DNA from: an uncultured Bacteroidia bacterium
Lineage (GTDB): Bacteria; Bacteroidota; Bacteroidia; Bacteroidales; UBA932
DNA: 64,000 nt
Assembly (NCBI GenBank): GCA_902768665.1
Contig: CACXMA010000013.1
Location: 1 to 64,000, forward strand
Direction: 5' to 3'
Shown here: positions 1,298 through 43,099 of the stretch, piece after piece
Layout of the letters: each line of letters opens with the position of its first letter
How positions within the stretch are numbered: the first letter of the stretch is position 1
Position numbers and translations under genes: made by a program
The notes under the pieces: generated by a model
Told to the model about the DNA's origin: nothing
Seen by the model: only the letters and a program-made list of their open reading frames with translations
Databases searched by the model: none

Positions 1298-2725
1298 TTA
1301 CTTTCCGATGCAGTGGTGGGCGAAGATGTGGCCGAGGATTTCGTCGGGGGTGATGAGGCCTTCGCCGGTGATGCGGCCGAGTTCGGAGATGGTCATGCGG
1401 AGGGGCTCGGCGACGAGATCGCCGGGGGTGCCGCGGAGGAGGGAAGTGCGCACTTCAGCGAGATAACGGGCAGCTGTGGAGAGCGCTTCGTAGTGGCGCT
1501 GATTTGTGATAAAGGTCGAATCGGCATTGGGGATAAGCCCCTTCTCCAGCTCGATCAGGCGTTCCTTGAGCTTTTCGAGTCCTTCGCCGCTCTTGGCGGA
1601 GATGTAGAATAAATCTTTCTCTACATCAATAGATGAAACTATTTTGTTAATAATGCTAACAAAAATGTTATCGCCTGTTGTTGCCCTCTTATCCTGTTTA
1701 TTAAGCAGCAAAAGTACCTTTTGCGAGGCAGAATCGACCTGCTGGCAGATCTCTCTGAGATTGTTCAAAAGGACGGATTCGCTCTCGCTGCCATCCAGGA
1801 GTACCAGGACGATTTCGGCCTCGGAAATTTTGCGGAAAGTGCGCGCGATGCCGAGCTTTTCGACGGTGTCGGAGCTCTCCCGGATGCCCGCCGTGTCGAT
1901 GAAGCGGAAGAGAATTCCGCCGAGGTTGAGCGTCTCCTCGATGGTGTCGCGCGTCGTCCCGGCGATGTCCGAAACGATGGCGCGGTCCTCGCCGAGAAGG
2001 GCGTTGAGGAGGGTCGATTTGCCGGCGTTCGCGGGGCCGGCGATGGCGACCGGAACGCCGTTTTTGATGGCGTTGCCGAGACGGTAGCTGTCGGTCAGGC
2101 TTTGGATGTGCGAAGCGACTTTGTCAAGTAGGGCGAGAAGGGCCTTGCGGTCTGCAAACTCAACCTCTTCCTCGCTGAAATCCAGCTCGAGCTCCAGCAG
2201 GGAAGTCATCTCCAGCAGTTCGCTGCGGAGCGTAGCGAGTTCGCGGGAAACGCCGCCCCTGAGCTGGTTCATGGCGATGCGGTGCGAAGCTGCCGTAGTA
2301 GATGAGATGACGTCTGCAACGGCCTCTGCCTGAGCGAGGTCCATGCGTCCGTTGATGAAGGCGCGCTGGGTGAATTCGCCCGGGCCGGCCATCCGGGCTC
2401 CGGCTTCGACCAGAAGGCGCGTAAGCTCGCCTAGAATATAGGCGGACGCGTGGCAGGAGATCTCGACGGAGTCTTCTCCCGTGTAAGAATGCGGAGCGCG
2501 GAAAACCGTCGCTACCACCTCGTCCAGGAGGGCGCCGTCGCGGCCCGTAACGGTTCCATAGTGGGCCGTATATCCTTTTGCATCAGCGAGCTTTCCCGAC
2601 TTTAACTGAAGTATCGCATCAGCTATGGGGAAGGCGTCCGGCCCGCTGATGCGTATAATGGAAATTGCTCCGGTACCCGGAAGGGTCGCCGGAGCAATGA
2701 TGGTGTCTTGTGTGTAAGAAGTCAT
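1298..2725 (-). CDS. mnmE: MnmE (TrmE), tRNA uridine-5-carboxymethylaminomethyl modification GTPase
   Basis: MnmE works with MnmG to place the cmnm5 group on U34 of several tRNAs. The 475-residue product has the usual length. It shows the N-terminal tetrahydrofolate-binding domain (about 1-120), the helical domain interrupted by the G domain, G1 motif GPANAGKS (230-237), the G2 region DIAGTTRDTIEE (253-264), DTAG (277-280), NKQD, and the catalytic C-terminal CIGK at the very end. ATG is at 2723-2725. It follows rho on the same strand after a 30-base spacer that consists of one palindromic repeat, so it is probably co-transcribed with rho. No independent promoter is seen. Confidence 0.97.
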   Translation of the reverse strand: MTSYTQDTIIAPATLPGTGAISIIRISGPDAFPIADAILQLKSGKLADAKGYTAHYGTVTGRDGALLDEVVATVFRAPHSYTGEDSVEISCHASAYILGELTRLLVEAGARMAGPGEFTQRAFINGRMDLAQAEAVADVISSTTAASHRIAMNQLRGGVSRELATLRSELLEMTSLLELELDFSEEEVEFADRKALLALLDKVASHIQSLTDSYRLGNAIKNGVPVAIAGPANAGKSTLLNALLGEDRAIVSDIAGTTRDTIEETLNLGGILFRFIDTAGIRESSDTVEKLGIARTFRKISEAEIVLVLLDGSESESVLLNNLREICQQVDSASQKVLLLLNKQDKRATTGDNIFVSIINKIVSSIDVEKDLFYISAKSGEGLEKLKERLIELEKGLIPNADSTFITNQRHYEALSTAARYLAEVRTSLLRGTPGDLVAEPLRMTISELGRITGEGLITPDEILGHIFAHHCIGK

Positions 2726-2755
2726 GAGATTTCTCGACTACGCTCGAAATGACAA
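2726..2755 (-). repeat. Palindromic repeat, CATTTCGAG family; fills the rho-mnmE spacer
   Basis: The whole spacer between the rho stop and the mnmE start is one repeat unit. In the direction of transcription it begins TTGTCATTTCGAGCG and ends GTCGAGAAATCTC, forming a stem of CATTTCGA-like arms around GCGTA. The same unit occurs at 17620-17646, 17981-18037 and, decayed, at 35247-35285. Confidence 0.85.
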
Positions 2756-4660
2756 TCAGTCATACCGGCCGAACTTGGACATGTTGTCGAGGAGGTCCTT
2801 GTTCGTCTTGAATTCGTCCATATGCTGCTGCATCCAGGTCATGGCCTCGACCGGATTCATGTCGGAGAGGAGCTTGCGGAGGATCCAGATGCGGTTCAGC
2901 GAGTAGGAGTCATAGAGAAGGTCGTCGCGGCGCGTCGAGGAGAGCGTGAGGTTCACGGACGGGAAGATGCGCTTATTGGACAGGTTGCGGTCCAGCTGGA
3001 GCTCCATGTTGCCGGTGCCCTTGAATTCCTCGAAGATGACGTCGTCCATCTTGGAGCCGGTCTCGGTCAGGGCCGTTGCGAGGATGGTCAGGGAACCGCC
3101 GTTCTCGATTTTGCGGGCGGCGCCGAAGAAGCGCTTCGGCCGCTGGAGGGCGTTGGCGTCCACACCGCCGGTCAGGACCTTGCCGGAAGCCGGCTGGACG
3201 GTGTTGTAGGCGCGGGCGAGGCGGGTGATGGAGTCGAGGAGGATCACCACGTCGTGGCCGCATTCGGCGAGGCGGCGGGCCTTGTCGAGGACCATGTTGG
3301 CGACCTTTACGTGGCGCTCGGCGGGCTCGTCGAAGGTGCTGGCGACGACCTCGGCCTTGACGCTGCGGCACATGTCGGTGACCTCTTCCGGGCGCTCGTC
3401 GATAAGGAGGACGATTTCGTAGACCTCCGGATGGTTGTCGGCGATGGCGTTGGCGATGGCCTTGAGGAGCATGGTCTTACCGGTCTTCGGCTGGGCGACG
3501 ATCAGGCCGCGCTGGCCCTTGCCGATCGGGGTGAACATGTCGACGATGCGGCAGCTCAGGTCCTTCTCGTGGCCGTGGCCGAGGAGATTGAACTTCTCGG
3601 ACGGGAAGAGGGGAGTCAGGAACTCGAACGGGATGCGGTCGCGGACAAATTCCGGAGTCCGGCCGTTGATGAACTTGATTTTCACCAGCGGGAAATACTT
3701 GTCGCCCTCGCGCGGAGGACGGATCTCGCCCGTGACGGTGTCGCCCGGCTTGAGGGAATTCTGCTTGATCTGCTGCTGGGAGACGTAGATGTCGTCCGGG
3801 GAGTTGAGATAGTTGTAGTCGGAGGAGCGGAGGAAACCGTAGCCGTCGGGCATGATCTCCAGCACGCCCGTGGCCTCGACGGAGCCTTCAAACTCGATCC
3901 GCGGCGGGCGCTGGGGACGCTGCTGGCCATTCTGGCCGTTCTGGCCATTCTGCGGCTGGTTCTGCTGCGGCTGCTGGCCCTTGTTGGGCTGGCCCTGCTG
4001 CTGGCGGTCCTTGTGCTGCTTTTTCTCTTCCTGCTGGGCGGCGTCCTTGTCGAGTTCATCGAAGACGGCGTGGATCAGGGCCTTGCCGTCCTGGGGCTTC
4101 GCGTCTTCGGCGGCAGCTGCGCCGTCACTGACGGCCTGCTCGGCCTTGGGCTTGCGGCCGCGACGGGGCTTTTCGGCGGGAGATTTCTCGGCTTCGCCCG
4201 AAACGACAGCTGCCTCGGCGGCTTTTTCCGCCTTGGGGGCTTCTGCCGGTGCATCGGCGGCCTTGGGCTTGCGGCCGCGGCGGGGCTTTTCGGCGGGAGA
4301 TTTTGTCACATTCGTGACATCTCTCGCGGGCTCAGTTCCTTTGCCGTCTCGGGTCTCGGCTTCGCTCGAATGGGCGACAGCATCGGCGGCTTTCTCTGCC
4401 TTGGGGGCACCGGCGGCCTTCTCTGCCTTGGCGGGCTTTTCCGCAGGCTTTTCGGCCTTCGGCTGCTCCTTCTTCGGGCGGCCCGGCTTGCGCTTTTTCT
4501 CAGCGACGGGCTTGAGGGATTCCCGCTTGGCTTCTTCGTCGAGGATGGCGTAGGCCATGGCTTCGACATCCATCTTGCGGGTATTGATATTCAGCGATTC
4601 GGCGAGCGTCCGCATTTCGGCTTCGCTCATCGCATTCAGCTCATAAAGAGTGTGAGGCAT
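2756..4660 (-). CDS. rho: Transcription termination factor Rho with long disordered insert
   Basis: Rho is the hexameric RNA helicase that ends transcription. I place the start at ATG 4658-4660 (MPHTLYELN), giving 634 residues; an in-frame ATG at 4723 is further upstream but overlaps the promoter. Order: short Rho N-terminal helical domain (about 1-45); a basic disordered region to about residue 250 with GRPKK and two RRGRKPK AT-hook-like blocks and then a Q/N/G-rich tract; the RNA-binding cold-shock domain ([15 protein letters not shown]); then the ATPase core with Walker A AQPKTGKT, the [15 protein letters not shown] segment and the Q and R loops. Long inserts of this kind are known in Bacteroidetes Rho. 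Parts of the insert seem to be built from palindromic repeat DNA (see 4181-4209). Confidence 0.96.
4181..4209 (-). repeat. CATTTCGAG-family repeat copy inside the rho coding sequence
   Basis: On the rho strand this reads CTGTCGTTTCGGGCGAAG then CCGAGAAATCT. It differs from the intergenic repeat by only a few substitutions and keeps the GTC...GAGAAATC frame. It encodes the [10 protein letters not shown] segment of the disordered region in frame. A weaker relative lies at about 4349-4379 (SSEAETRDG), and a GTCAC-ATTC-GTGAC hairpin at about 4308-4321. Confidence 0.55.
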
Positions 4661-4720: not shown

Positions 4721-4751
4721 CAAAGATAGTGATTTCTGTTGAGAAATCCAA
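4721..4751 (-). promoter_or_regulatory. rho promoter
   Basis: Reverse-strand TATCTTTG (4721-4728) with TTG (4749-4751) at 20 bases fits the Bacteroidetes consensus and lies about 60 bases before the chosen rho ATG. The -33 element sits inside the outer arm of the palindromic repeat at 4745-4787. Confidence 0.7.
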
Positions 4752-4819
4752 CAGATTCCACGGACAAGCCGTGGAATCTGTTGGATTGCCGCAGGCGCCG
4801 GACAAGCCGTGGAATGACG
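4745..4819 (-). repeat. Composite repeat: one 40-mer-type unit plus terminal palindrome, between lptD and rho
   Basis: Reading leftward from the lptD stop, a CGTCATTCCACGG-type unit (4819 to about 4780, containing GGCGCCTGCGGCAA) is followed by a perfect 19-bp inverted repeat around the 5-base loop 4764-4768 (arms 4745-4763 and 4769-4787). The same two-part design occurs at 17650-17717 and 42965-43072. It lies 3' of lptD in sense orientation and reaches into the rho promoter. Confidence 0.8.
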
Positions 4820-10576: not shown

Positions 10577-10656
10577 CGTCATTCCACGGCCCCGTCCGTA
10601 ATCGTCATTCCACGGCTTGTCCGTAATCGTCATTCCACGGCTTGTCCGTGGAATCT
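10577..10656 (+). repeat. Three tandem CATTCCACGG repeats after dnaA
   Basis: Copies start at 10577, 10603 and 10628. The first two are clipped (both end CCGTAAT), while the third carries both arms ATTCCACGG (10632-10640) and CCGTGGAAT (10646-10654) around CTTGT. The copies follow each other with no unrelated bases between them. Confidence 0.85.
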
Positions 10657-16951: not shown

Positions 16952-17613
16952 TTCGCATCGACAAAAACTCCCACGAGACCATCCTCTTCGCCTGGCTGGG
17001 CGGGGCGCTGGTCCTGACGCCGCTCTGGCTGCTGGTGCACAACCTCTGGATAACCGTTCCGATCACGGTGCTGGCGGTGGTGTTCATGTGCTTCGTGACC
17101 TGGTTCTTCCGGGTGCCGAAGCGGCAGGCGCCGGCGGGGGAGCGGCTCGTCACGAGCGTCTGCGACGGTAAGGTCGTCATCGTGGAGAAGGCTTTCGAGA
17201 AGGAGTACCTCAAGCGCGAATGCATCCAGGTATCCGTCTATATGAACTTCTTCGACGTCCACTGCAATTTCTGGCCGTGCGACGGGGAAGTGTCTTATTA
17301 TCAGTATCATCCCGGGAAGTATCTGCTGGCTTTCCTGCCGAAGTCGTCCGAGCTCAACGAGCACGCCTCAAGCGTCATCCGTACCGACGGCGGGGATGAA
17401 ATCTTCTTCAAGCAGATCGCCGGGACCTTCGCCCGCCGCATCGTCTGCTATTCCAAGCCCGGGCTCAGGACCGTCCGGGGCGAGCAGTGCGGTGTCATCA
17501 AGTTCGGCAGCCGGATCGACATGTTCCTGCCCCTGGACGCCGACATCAAGGTCAAGGTCGGCGACCTCGTCTCCGCCGTCACTTCCACCATCGCCGTTCT
17601 TCCCCGCCGATAG
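16948..17613 (+). CDS. psd: Phosphatidylserine decarboxylase (small, Psd-related)
   Basis: Converts phosphatidylserine to phosphatidylethanolamine. The 221-residue form (archaeal/Bacteroidetes type) has two membrane helices at the N-terminus and the motif IQVSVYMNFFDVHCNFWP, then the self-cleavage site FGSRID, where the Gly-Ser bond is cut to form the pyruvoyl cofactor (GSR rather than the E. coli GST). The start ATG at 16948 overlaps the cdsA stop. The gene is the last of the rsfS operon, and its stop is followed within ten bases by repeat elements. Confidence 0.93.
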   Translation: MIRIDKNSHETILFAWLGGALVLTPLWLLVHNLWITVPITVLAVVFMCFVTWFFRVPKRQAPAGERLVTSVCDGKVVIVEKAFEKEYLKRECIQVSVYMNFFDVHCNFWPCDGEVSYYQYHPGKYLLAFLPKSSELNEHASSVIRTDGGDEIFFKQIAGTFARRIVCYSKPGLRTVRGEQCGVIKFGSRIDMFLPLDADIKVKVGDLVSAVTSTIAVLPRR

Positions 17614-17619
17614 TCCTCT

Positions 17620-17717
17620 ATCATTTCGAGCGTAGTCGAGAATCTTTTCCGTCATTCCACGGCTTGTCCAGCGCCCGCGGCAATTGAACCGTCATTCCAC
17701 GGCTTGTCCGTGGAATC
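17620..17717 (+). repeat. Repeat array after psd: CATTTCGAG unit, one 40-mer, terminal CATTCCACGG palindrome
   Basis: Three units in a row: a CATTTCGAG-family copy (17620-17646); a 40-base unit (17650-17689) that starts CGTCATTCCACGG and continues GCGCCCGCGGCAATTGAA; and a complete CATTCCACGG palindrome (17690-17717). The 40-base period is exact. The same array, with one more 40-mer, is at 42965-43072. All units point in the direction of psd transcription. Confidence 0.85.
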
Positions 17718-17732
17718 TGTCCTCCGGTTTCC

Positions 17733-17826
17733 GGACAGTGGTCGTCAAAAGCCCGATCTCAGGGGGCTGCTTCGCATCCCCTCCTTCGGTCCTGGCGGAC
17801 GGCAGGGCTTTTGACGGCCACTGTCC
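17733..17826. repeat. Long inverted repeat between psd and dapF
   Basis: Arms of 22 bases (17733-17754 and 17805-17826) match with one mismatch around a 50-base GC-rich centre that itself holds short stems (AGCCC/GGGCT and GGGG/CCCC). It starts 16 bases after the repeat array and sits between the convergent psd and dapF genes. Confidence 0.75.
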
Positions 17827-17852
17827 TTCAACCTGCGGCCAGAAGATCGGGG

Positions 17853-18773
17853 CTAGATTTCGTAGGTGGCGAGGAGGACGACGGGGCCGGTAAGGTAGAC
17901 GGCGGTGAAGGTATCGGGGCCGACGGGGGTGAAGTCGACGCTGAGGTCGTCCTGACGGGCCCGGACGGGGGTGTGGACGCTGTCATTTCGACCAAGCGAA
18001 GCGTCCTTTTTGTCATTTCGAGCTTGTCGAGAAATCTCCCCGGCCGAGAACCAGGCGGCGATGGCGCTGGCGGTGATGCCGGTGCCGCAGGCGAGGGTCT
18101 CTCCTTCGACGCCTTTCTCGAAGGTGCGGACCTTGATGCCGCCGCCGGGCAGCCGCTGGACAAAGTTGGCGTTGGCGCCGATGGGCGCAAAGGTCGGATC
18201 GTGGCGGTAGCGCGGGCCTTCTTTCTCTATATCAAGGGCTTCCACGTCGTCGACAAAGCGGACATAATGCCGTGTCCCCGTGTCGAGGAAGTAGCCGCCC
18301 AGCACCGGCGTCACGCCGCTGACGTCCTTCATGCCGAGGCGGATGGTCCAGCCCTTCTCATCCTTGGCCAGCAACTCGGCCGTATGCGGCCCGTCTGGCG
18401 CCAGGAAGCGGAAAATGCGGCTGCCGTCGCCCGGCCGGATGCCGAGATAATCGGCGAAGGCCGCAATGCAGCGCCCTCCGTTGCCGCACATCATCCCGCC
18501 CGACCCGTCCGGATTGTAGAACTCCATCCGGAAGTCGCTGCGCCTAGGACCGCGGGGAGGCGCTTGCGCTGACCCAAGATTCGTCTTGCAGAACTCCTCT
18601 GCCCGGAGGCTGGAGGACGCTTCTCCTGCGCAGAGAATCATCAGGCCGTCGGTGTGGTACTGAGCGCAGAGGGCGACGATCCGCTCGGGGACTCGGAAGG
18701 GGGCCATGTCGGCGCCGCGGCCGTCCAGGACCACAAAATTGTTCCCGGCGCCGGAGAAATGGTATAGTTTCAT
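17853..18773 (-). CDS. dapF: DapF, diaminopimelate epimerase, with two in-frame insertions
   Basis: Converts LL- to meso-diaminopimelate for peptidoglycan and lysine. Both catalytic cysteines are present: C96 in NPDGSGGMMCGNGGRC and C229 in GVEGETLACGTG. The start FSGAGNNFVVLDGRG is typical. At 306 residues it is about 40-50 longer than usual homologues. The extra length lies in two blocks: residues about 50-79 (a GC-rich segment with small hairpins, 18537-18626) and residues about 245-265, which are encoded by two antisense copies of the CATTTCGAG repeat (17981-18037). The frame stays open through both. The ATG overlaps the stop of the aminotransferase gene, so the two are translationally coupled. 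Confidence 0.93.
   Translation of the reverse strand: MKLYHFSGAGNNFVVLDGRGADMAPFRVPERIVALCAQYHTDGLMILCAGEASSSLRAEEFCKTNLGSAQAPPRGPRRSDFRMEFYNPDGSGGMMCGNGGRCIAAFADYLGIRPGDGSRIFRFLAPDGPHTAELLAKDEKGWTIRLGMKDVSGVTPVLGGYFLDTGTRHYVRFVDDVEALDIEKEGPRYRHDPTFAPIGANANFVQRLPGGGIKVRTFEKGVEGETLACGTGITASAIAAWFSAGEISRQARNDKKDASLGRNDSVHTPVRARQDDLSVDFTPVGPDTFTAVYLTGPVVLLATYEI
17981..18037 (+). repeat. Two tandem CATTTCGAG repeats inside dapF
   Basis: Copy one (17981-18010) reads TGTCATTTCGACCAAGCG and onward; copy two (18011-18037) reads TGTCATTTCGAGCTTGTC then GAGAAATCTC. They are antisense to dapF and are translated there as GEISRQARNDKKDASLGRND. Their length does not break the frame. Confidence 0.85.
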
Positions 18774-19918
18774 CTTGCTTTCGAGATAAGGTCGGCGAGA
18801 AGGCGGATGCCCGGCTCCATCTTCGCCTCGTCGATGAAGGAGAAATTGAGCCGCATCGTGTTGCGGTGCGAGCCGTCGGTATAGAAGAACGATCCGGCGA
18901 CGTAAGCCACCCCGGCGCTCAGCGCCTCGTCGTAGAGGGCGACGGTGTCGATGCCCTCCGGGAGGGTCAGGAAGAGGAACAGGCCGCCTTCGGGGCGGGT
19001 CCAGAAAGTGCCTTCAGGCATGTACCGCTCCAGCAGGCCGAGCATCCTGTCCCTGCGCCGGCGGTATTCGGCGATGGTCTTTACGAGGTTGCGGTCCAGC
19101 TCGCCGGAGCTGATATACTCAGCGGCGATGTACTGGTCGAACACGGGCGGACAGAGGTCCAGCGCCTGCTTGCAGATATAGATCTTCTCCAGCAGCGCTT
19201 CCGGTCCGATGATCCAGCCGAGACGGAAGCCCGGCGCCAGGATCTTGGAGAAGGACCCCAGATGCAGCGTCCGCTCCGGAGCCATGCTGTAGAGGGTCGG
19301 AACGGCCTCGCCGCTGTAGCGCAGCTCGCGGTAGGGACTGTCCTCCACGATCAGCAGGTCCTGCTCCCGGGCAAAGGAGACGAGCTCCTCCCGCTCCGAG
19401 AGCGTCATCGTCTCGCCCGAGGGATTGTTGAAATCCGGAATGACGTAGATGAACTTCGCCCGGAGGCCGGAGGCGGCAGCAGGGATGCTGGAGGCGGCGA
19501 TGGGCCGGACCTCGGCCCTGTAGGACCGGAAGGACTGCAGCGCGCCGAGGTAGACGGGATTCTTTGCAAGGACGATGTCGCCGGGGTCGAGCATCACGCG
19601 CGAGCAGACGTCGATGCCCTGCTGGGAGGATGTCGTGATCTGCACCCGCGAAACGGGCACGCCGTAGCGGTCGGCGATGGCCTGGCGAAGCTCCGGAACG
19701 CCCTGTGTGGCGCCGTACTGGAGGGCCTTGGGTCCGTATTTGTCGAGGACGTCGCTGCTCAGCCGCTTGATGGCCTCCGTGGGGAAGGTCACCGCGGCGG
19801 GGTAGCCGCCGGCGAAGGAGCAGATGGCGGAAAGGTCCACCTTGGCGAATATGTCGCGGACGGGCGAACGCAGGAAGGAGGGAACGTCCCCGGAAAAGAA
19901 TGCGGAATAGTCTCTCAT
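18770..19918 (-). CDS. PLP-dependent aminotransferase, 2-aminoadipate/MocR-like class I fold
   Basis: A fold-type I aminotransferase of 382 residues without a DNA-binding domain. Visible motifs: QYGATQGVPELRQAIADRYG, DFNNPSGETMT (substrate and PLP contacts), IVEDSPYRELRY (Asp and Tyr of the cofactor site) and HLGSFSKILAPGFRLGW with the Schiff-base Lys. The closest named group is the 2-aminoadipate transaminase (LysN-like) family. Its ATG overlaps the upstream DUF2490 stop by one base and its stop overlaps the dapF start by four. The coupling to dapF suggests, as inference, a role in amino-acid or lysine metabolism; the substrate cannot be read from sequence. Confidence 0.85.
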   Translation of the reverse strand: MRDYSAFFSGDVPSFLRSPVRDIFAKVDLSAICSFAGGYPAAVTFPTEAIKRLSSDVLDKYGPKALQYGATQGVPELRQAIADRYGVPVSRVQITTSSQQGIDVCSRVMLDPGDIVLAKNPVYLGALQSFRSYRAEVRPIAASSIPAAASGLRAKFIYVIPDFNNPSGETMTLSEREELVSFAREQDLLIVEDSPYRELRYSGEAVPTLYSMAPERTLHLGSFSKILAPGFRLGWIIGPEALLEKIYICKQALDLCPPVFDQYIAAEYISSGELDRNLVKTIAEYRRRRDRMLGLLERYMPEGTFWTRPEGGLFLFLTLPEGIDTVALYDEALSAGVAYVAGSFFYTDGSHRNTMRLNFSFIDEAKMEPGIRLLADLISKAR

Positions 19919-28066: not shown

Positions 28067-28120
28067 CCGTTTTTTTTGAACAAATCCCTCGAAATGTATG
28101 GAAAAGTTGAATAAATCTGC

Positions 28121-35246: not shown

Positions 35247-35285
35247 TTGTCATTTCGACCGAGCAAAGCGAGTGGAGAAAGCTCT
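35247..35285 (+). repeat. Decayed CATTTCGAG repeat filling the DUF3467-kdsC spacer
   Basis: The whole 39-base gap from stop codon to start codon consists of TTGTCATTTCGACCGAGC and a degenerate second half ending GGAGAAAGCTCT. It has the same skeleton as the copy at 2726-2755 and points in the direction of transcription. Confidence 0.7.
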
Positions 35286-42964: not shown

Positions 42965-43072
42965 CGTCATTCCACGGCTTGTCCAGTGCCCGCGGCAATT
43001 GAATCGTCATTCCACGGCTTGTCCAGCGCCCGCGGCAGTTGAACCGTCATTCCACGGCTTGTCCGTGGAATC
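42965..43072 (+). repeat. Repeat array: two 40-mers and a terminal CATTCCACGG palindrome
   Basis: Units start at 42965, 43005 and 43045, an exact 40-base period. The first two begin CGTCATTCCACGG and continue with GCCCGCGGCA.TTGAA; the last is the complete palindrome ending GTGGAATC. Nearly identical to 17650-17717, 25 kb away. There are no variable spacers, so it is not a CRISPR. Confidence 0.88.
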
Positions 43073-43099
43073 TGTTCTTCGGTGCTGCGGGAGCCTATT

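Follow-up and report, generated by a model that had tools for sequence, protein, structure and literature searches.

A probable REP-type palindromic repeat array in frame within dapF of a Bacteroidales genome

Introduction

Palindromic DNA repeats that lie in frame within proteins are best known from Rickettsia.

Di Nocera et al. (2013; PMC3733652) likewise give Rickettsia as the best-known case of such in-frame insertions, and equate the elements RPE-6 and RPE-4 with CGTC-1 and CGTC-4 of R. conorii. In that source, REPs of the CGTC super-family are defined by a CGTC tag (or TGTC or CCTC), a stem of 8-9 bp, a loop of 4-5 nt and a 3-nt tail that is mostly CCA; their dimers are mainly inverted, direct ones being negligible. 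They occur in Bacteroidetes, and intragenic units are found in several species, with DNA polymerase I among the targets. Other REPs accompany RAYT transposases, and PMC6006769 describes RAYT subclass 2.4, in which REPs are located inside the transposase gene, as abundant in Bacteroidetes. Among the matches listed, no paper title concerns in-frame REPs in Bacteroidales.

The window, which is the whole stretch of 64,000 nucleotides analysed here, comes from a 2.03-Mb Bacteroidales metagenome-assembled genome (MAG) of 26 contigs that is 88% complete. Its repeats resemble the CGTC REPs of PMC3733652 in being short palindromes of many copies with AT pairs opening the stem and a CGTC tag that is often TGTC, and also in their Bacteroidetes hosts, their intragenic units and the presence of DNA polymerase I among the targets. 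RPE-6 and RPE-4 are similar in that short palindromes sit in frame in diverse proteins, with grouped or dimeric inserts of 20-30 amino acids; they belong, however, to another phylum, and the likeness is one of description. The REPs with RAYT transposases (PMC6006769) share with the present case dispersed palindromes in genomes with Y1 transposase-like genes, but the host genome lacks a detectable RAYT gene flanked by the dapF repeat. The case is a Bacteroidales variant akin to Rickettsia RPE-4/6 and to intragenic CGTC REPs, and the data agree with the comparison to Rickettsia palindromic elements in housekeeping proteins that an earlier, sequence-only reading of this DNA had drawn. The remark in that reading that such insertions are rarely reported in Bacteroidetes has to be set beside PMC3733652, with its CGTC REPs from that phylum and its intragenic REPs from several species.

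The repeat array within dapF

The dapF product matches TIGR00652 with 131.1 bits (cut-off 114.65), the residues aligned in the profile search being 1-242, up to the insert. It is also recognised by PF01678 of Pfam, and the top four PDB fold matches of its model are all DapF entries, one of them a mutant. On the minus strand, window positions 17979-18041 read GEISRQARNDKKDASLGRNDS and encode residues 245-265, just as the sequence-only reading had placed them, in coordinates and in frame. Conserved residues flank the insert on both sides. Both catalytic cysteines, C96 and C229, are retained and are invariant across 46 aligned DapFs, and after the insert L277, V279, F281, L294, G296 and P297 are invariant in the same alignment; since conserved residues stand past the insert, the frame is kept, and the earlier reading was right on both counts. 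Its description of the segment as two tandem antisense copies is correct for the antisense repeat but not for two full copies: one truncated head and one whole unit, running in the same direction, make up an array of 59 nt in total (Table 1). The frame used in dapF is an antisense frame of the repeat, and several of the other frames in use read V-I-S-S-E-x-E-K-S or near.

As DNA the array by itself folds no better than its shuffles, with z of -0.32 and 0.18 for the two strands, whereas a comparable array at G000:C2 folds better than its own (z -2.48). No known RNA of Rfam matches positions 17500-18900 at the gathering score.

Table 1. Coordinates of the repeats and genes; positions are those of the window unless a contig is named
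Feature	Position	Strand	Evidence or remark
dapF, diaminopimelate epimerase, 306 aa	17853..18773	-	TIGR00652, PF01678; PDB fold matches
REP family 1, truncated copy (head only, TGTCATTTCGACCAAGCGAAGCG), antisense to dapF	17981..18003	+	
7-nt linker joining the two copies	18004..18010	.	Head-to-head spacing 30 nt
Whole 29-nt unit of REP family 1, antisense to dapF, same direction as head	18011..18039	+	R1 E=1.8e-4; copy part of R1
Second insertion in DapF, residues 51-75	18549..18623	-	<30% column occupancy in 45 other rows; loop A 33 aa vs median 7
21-nt segment CCTCCAGCCTCCGGGCAGAGG	18596..18616	-	Exact match at three other genome places, where it opens a ~100-nt in-frame insert
Intergenic REP family 1 copy, neighbours dapF and a psd-like gene (name by eye)	17619..17648	+	R1 E=0.004; copy part of R1
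REP family 2 copy, intergenic	17691..17718	+	
REP family 1 copy, start of mnmE-like ORF (name by eye)	2725..2754	-	R1 match
Degenerate REP family 1 copy in frame in rho	4179..4208	-	R1 E=0.008; NF006886 match covers protein residues 26-648
Long-form REP family 1 copy, start of KdsC-like ORF (name by eye)	35248..35285	+	R1 match
~100-nt element sites	G000:C18:17420, C7:94322, C6:66689 (L158, L159, L160)		In IspG, RlmB-like methyltransferase, third small protein
RAYT-like gene	G000:C5:20607-21476 (L056 2108-2977)		NF047646 33.9 bits, below cut-off 80

Repeat family 1 in the genome

The repeat of dapF, family 1, was modelled by a covariance model, R1, from an alignment of 20 rows that includes the dapF unit and has one copy entered twice; because the model was built with it, the R1 score of the dapF unit is partly circular. 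The rows agree in TGTCAT(T/C)TCGA at one end, apart from a single row with TATCAT, and most have GAGAAATCT at the opposite end; the units come in two forms of about 30 and about 38 nt. The tag, TGTC in 19 of the 20 rows and TATC in one, is unpaired in the consensus, and the stem has nine predicted pairs and is interrupted. Columns 12-27 hold C-G in 10 rows and G-C in the other 10, a paired change in which one copy is counted twice. The far end is mostly ATCT followed by variable bases, with CCA there in none of the 20 rows.

With 150 candidates scored in each R1 search, from 1309 first-look candidates in the host genome, at least 74 matches were obtained at E<=1 and at least 69 at E<=0.01. Twelve places in the genome match the pattern GTCATTTCGAN{14,24}GAGAAATC, and none matches its reversed control; the unit in dapF falls short of the length that this pattern requires. 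The bare 9-mer CATTTCGAG, found four times in the window against 0.89 expected, is weaker evidence; the occurrence at 28088 stands without the 3' half of the repeat. A direct neighbour lies within 80 nt of 16 of the 74 copies and an inverted neighbour near 7 of the 74, and the layout of a head followed by a unit is recurrent. Direct neighbours thus outnumber inverted ones, the end is of a CT type instead of CCA, and there are two unit lengths, all unlike the CGTC REPs; family 1 is not filed as a member of that super-family because its tail and the orientation of its neighbours depart.

Copies of the repeat are scattered over the genome; the array in dapF runs antisense to the gene and preserves its frame, and most of the relatives examined lack the repeat in its full form. 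It could be argued that the segment is an ordinary low-complexity expansion of a loop whose likeness to the repeat is convergent, given that this loop varies in length within the genus (37-126 residues from CGTG to LTGP) and that some relatives, such as L019, have simple-sequence expansions in it. Convergence is nevertheless very improbable, for the match between the 29-nt unit and the dispersed repeat extends over the unit's whole length, and other places in the genome show the same succession of head and unit.

A second repeat family and a longer element

Family 2, in its commonest form CGTC ATTCCACGG CTTGT CCGTGGAAT CT, has 73 exact-core copies against none in the control. This form can be read as a 9-bp stem around CTTGT, which would agree with a 9-bp stem and 5-nt loop as in the CGTC REPs; the CGTC tag is present in all 30 copies, of the 73, in which the upstream base was read. 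Copies in the window lie at 4750-4777, 10629-10656, 17691-17718 and 43046-43073, some adjoining truncated heads. The 30 of 73 copies with loci were examined for in-frame position. Family 2 is in frame, with a family match spanning the repeat, in RsmE, a Gph-like protein and a galactarate-dehydratase-like protein, the last two spanning matches being below the cut-off; from matches on one side it is probably in frame in MiaA, AroB and Ogt too. None of the 110 DapFs of the genus carries family 2.

An element of about 100 nt, ASSLRAEAPKSPIDLPGQIGPRRTAGLLGTSAT or nearly so, is in frame in IspG, in an RlmB-like methyltransferase and in a third small protein that is FecR-like by eye. TIGR00612 runs across the IspG insert, while the RlmB match is on one side only. 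The intergenic inverted repeat adjoining dapF, at 17716-17843, by eye shares the core of this element (AAAAGCCCGATC ... GGCGGACGGCAGGGCTTTTG).

In-frame repeats in other genes

All 74 R1 matches were placed in loci, the open frames running through them were listed, and a selection of the ORFs was searched against NCBIfam and Pfam. Fifteen of the 74 are in frame within 13 recognised genes in which family evidence lies to either side of the repeat, a lower bound because only selected ORFs were scanned. The genes encode MnmG, PolA (two copies), YidC, PatB, an ECF sigma factor, a Gfo/Idh protein, HolB, AlkD, a GH2 protein, a GH43 protein (two copies), RsmE, Rho and DapF, the last by alignment. The repeat-spanning matches of YidC, Gfo/Idh and HolB fall under the curated cut-offs, and the YidC repeat itself is weak (R1 E=0.05). 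Outside the 15, matches on one side only were obtained for ORFs of U32 (three copies), AtpB (two), a transglutaminase-like protein and a solute-binding protein, while a ParC-like and an OadG-like ORF had no family match in the profile search. YggS looked like a repeat-bearing gene and was rejected, as its repeat sits just upstream of the start. The spacing between heads is divisible by three in 5 of 5 arrays in ORFs and in 4 of 10 others (p=0.04), a weak result with ORF status and counts taken by eye and the family comparison made for three of the five ORFs. Separately, a dihydropteroate synthase-like protein (L056 3227-4111) contains low-complexity sequence (GPNASGVGVSGTDVSGTNASAAGA) within the part matched by Pterin_bind.

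The present repeat and others are thus in frame inside further recognised genes of the host genome. The insertion that the sequence-only reading had reported in DapF is real, although not peculiar to that site, since other genes hold an in-frame repeat and DapF itself has a second insertion.

Loops and predicted structure of DapF

The AlphaFold model of DapF has a mean pLDDT of 89.9, with 247 of 306 residues at 90 or above. The means of 10-residue blocks are 62, 50 and 69 at residues 51-80 and 78, 54 and 82 at residues 241-270, and all other blocks are at least 90. In this model, then, the repeat falls in a low-confidence loop of an enzyme whose core has high confidence, and a helix is predicted within the insert at residues 245-254. 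The stretch from CGTG to LTGP has 61 residues in the window, against a median of 51.5 in the 110 DapFs of the genus. A surface loop had been suggested as a check on the insert, and the pLDDT of 54 at residues 251-260 is in its favour. The loop exceeds the genus median by only about 10 residues, and it is at least as long in 30 of the 110 DapFs, the window included. Because the excess is about 10 and not 21 residues, the array seems to have partly replaced or trimmed an older loop.

The second insertion (Table 1), at residues 51-75, is unrelated to the family-1 repeat; the median for its loop A comes from the 108 DapFs in which that loop can be delimited. The DapFs of relatives L003 and L019 show simple-sequence loop expansions (Cys-rich CEKSECECGCQDGEP repeats; ATPDGSTAASPNVSS repeats).

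Distribution among relatives

The best 80 named DapF relatives are from Bacteroidales or Bacteroidia MAGs, many of them from ruminants, and one is Candidatus Cryptobacteroides aphodequi; the genus of the window was deduced from these named relatives. When 110 DapFs of this genus were scanned for the family-1 pattern, with one mismatch permitted per half, the full repeat was found in six, the window included, which bears out the expectation that the segment should be absent from most relatives. It sits in loop D in the window, L005 and L195, in loop C in L020, in loop A in L100 and in loops A and B in L104. On a quick tree from which poorly filled columns were removed, the six repeat-bearing DapFs need six changes, at least five of them forced by well-supported branches. 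The full repeat is also present in 6 of the 80 named relatives' loci, a set that overlaps the 110; by peptide, four of these six (L260, L261, L273 and L276) are further cases, and L273 has antisense and sense units in one DapF loop. No empty site was found at strain level, the closest of the other 109 DapFs being 65% identical. R1 copy numbers run from 0 to 102 in 23 genomes of the same genus; the 14 genomes taken from elsewhere in the order have 0 to 3.

An error of assembly or binning, by which the repeat was wrongly joined into dapF, would have in its favour the 26 contigs and 88% completeness of the MAG. It is exceedingly improbable here, because the frame and the downstream conserved DapF residues are intact, frame-keeping copies occur in 12 other genes, separately assembled genomes also show dapF repeats, and the array is short.

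A repeat adapted to coding was considered and rejected: the units have a mean of 4.72 open frames, against 4.82 for random stretches of the fetched loci, and since they are not unusually frame-open, nothing shows adaptation to coding. The same result speaks against selection of the repeat-encoded peptides, whether for a function in the proteins or through insertion directed at particular loops, for example in DapF, as do the scatter of hits over unrelated proteins, whose peptides differ, and the lack of the full family-1 pattern in 104 of the 110 DapFs of the genus. DapF has nevertheless been hit more than once and in few loops, a count for DapF alone; a similar antisense array (EISPRASLGRNDSSALGRND) occurs in another DapF loop of L273, and polA is again a target, as in PMC3733652. 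On balance such selection or targeting is improbable.

Candidate transposases

Two Y1-transposase genes were found in the host genome, and on the sequence at hand neither is flanked by the dapF repeat. The RAYT-like gene on C5, which has no Pfam match at 1e-4, has a third repeat, GTGGCTACCCTCC...GGGAGGGTAG, on either side of it, and that repeat has six further match places among the fetched loci. The Y1 gene on C11 lies at a contig end with one flank missing, and the nearest family-1 repeat is 441 nt off, within alkD. Among the 23 same-genus genomes, a Y1_Tnp hit (E<=0.001) occurs in all 8 that contain at least three R1 copies; the number of R1 copies is 0 or 1 in the 7 genomes that lack such a hit and in 8 others that have one. 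The co-occurrence has a one-sided Fisher p of 0.026 with kinship ignored, and the hits are not cognate assignments. A RAYT as the mover of family 1 was set aside: Y1_Tnp co-occurs across genomes, but the gene with both flanks has a different repeat beside it.

Origin and meaning of the insertion

The dapF segment is very probably a REP-type array, a head and a full TGTC-tagged unit, that is now part of dapF, where the repeat is tolerated as a near-neutral insertion in a surface loop. The repeats, judging by their dispersal, would have multiplied through transposition or copying. An insertion that disrupted the frame or the core would be purged, so that the survivors would be close to neutral in-frame loop insertions, their survival depending on selection for frame and surface-loop position. 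In DapF the array may have partly replaced or trimmed the older loop, and the repeat peptide would have no specific job.

A broader proposal is possible though doubtful: several short palindromic families could time and again supply essential enzymes of this large gut and rumen genus with new peptide loops, through independent in-frame insertions, in different species, into the same permissive loops (four in DapF), some of them under selection. If this were true, enzyme surfaces would be partly written by mobile DNA. The Bacteroidales genus, with 400 searchable species genomes, three repeat types and recurrent hits to the loops of one enzyme, offers many independent events for asking whether peptides from mobile DNA are neutral or shape proteins. 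The case is also a warning that segments of this kind, when they turn up in annotated core proteins, are repeats and not domains.
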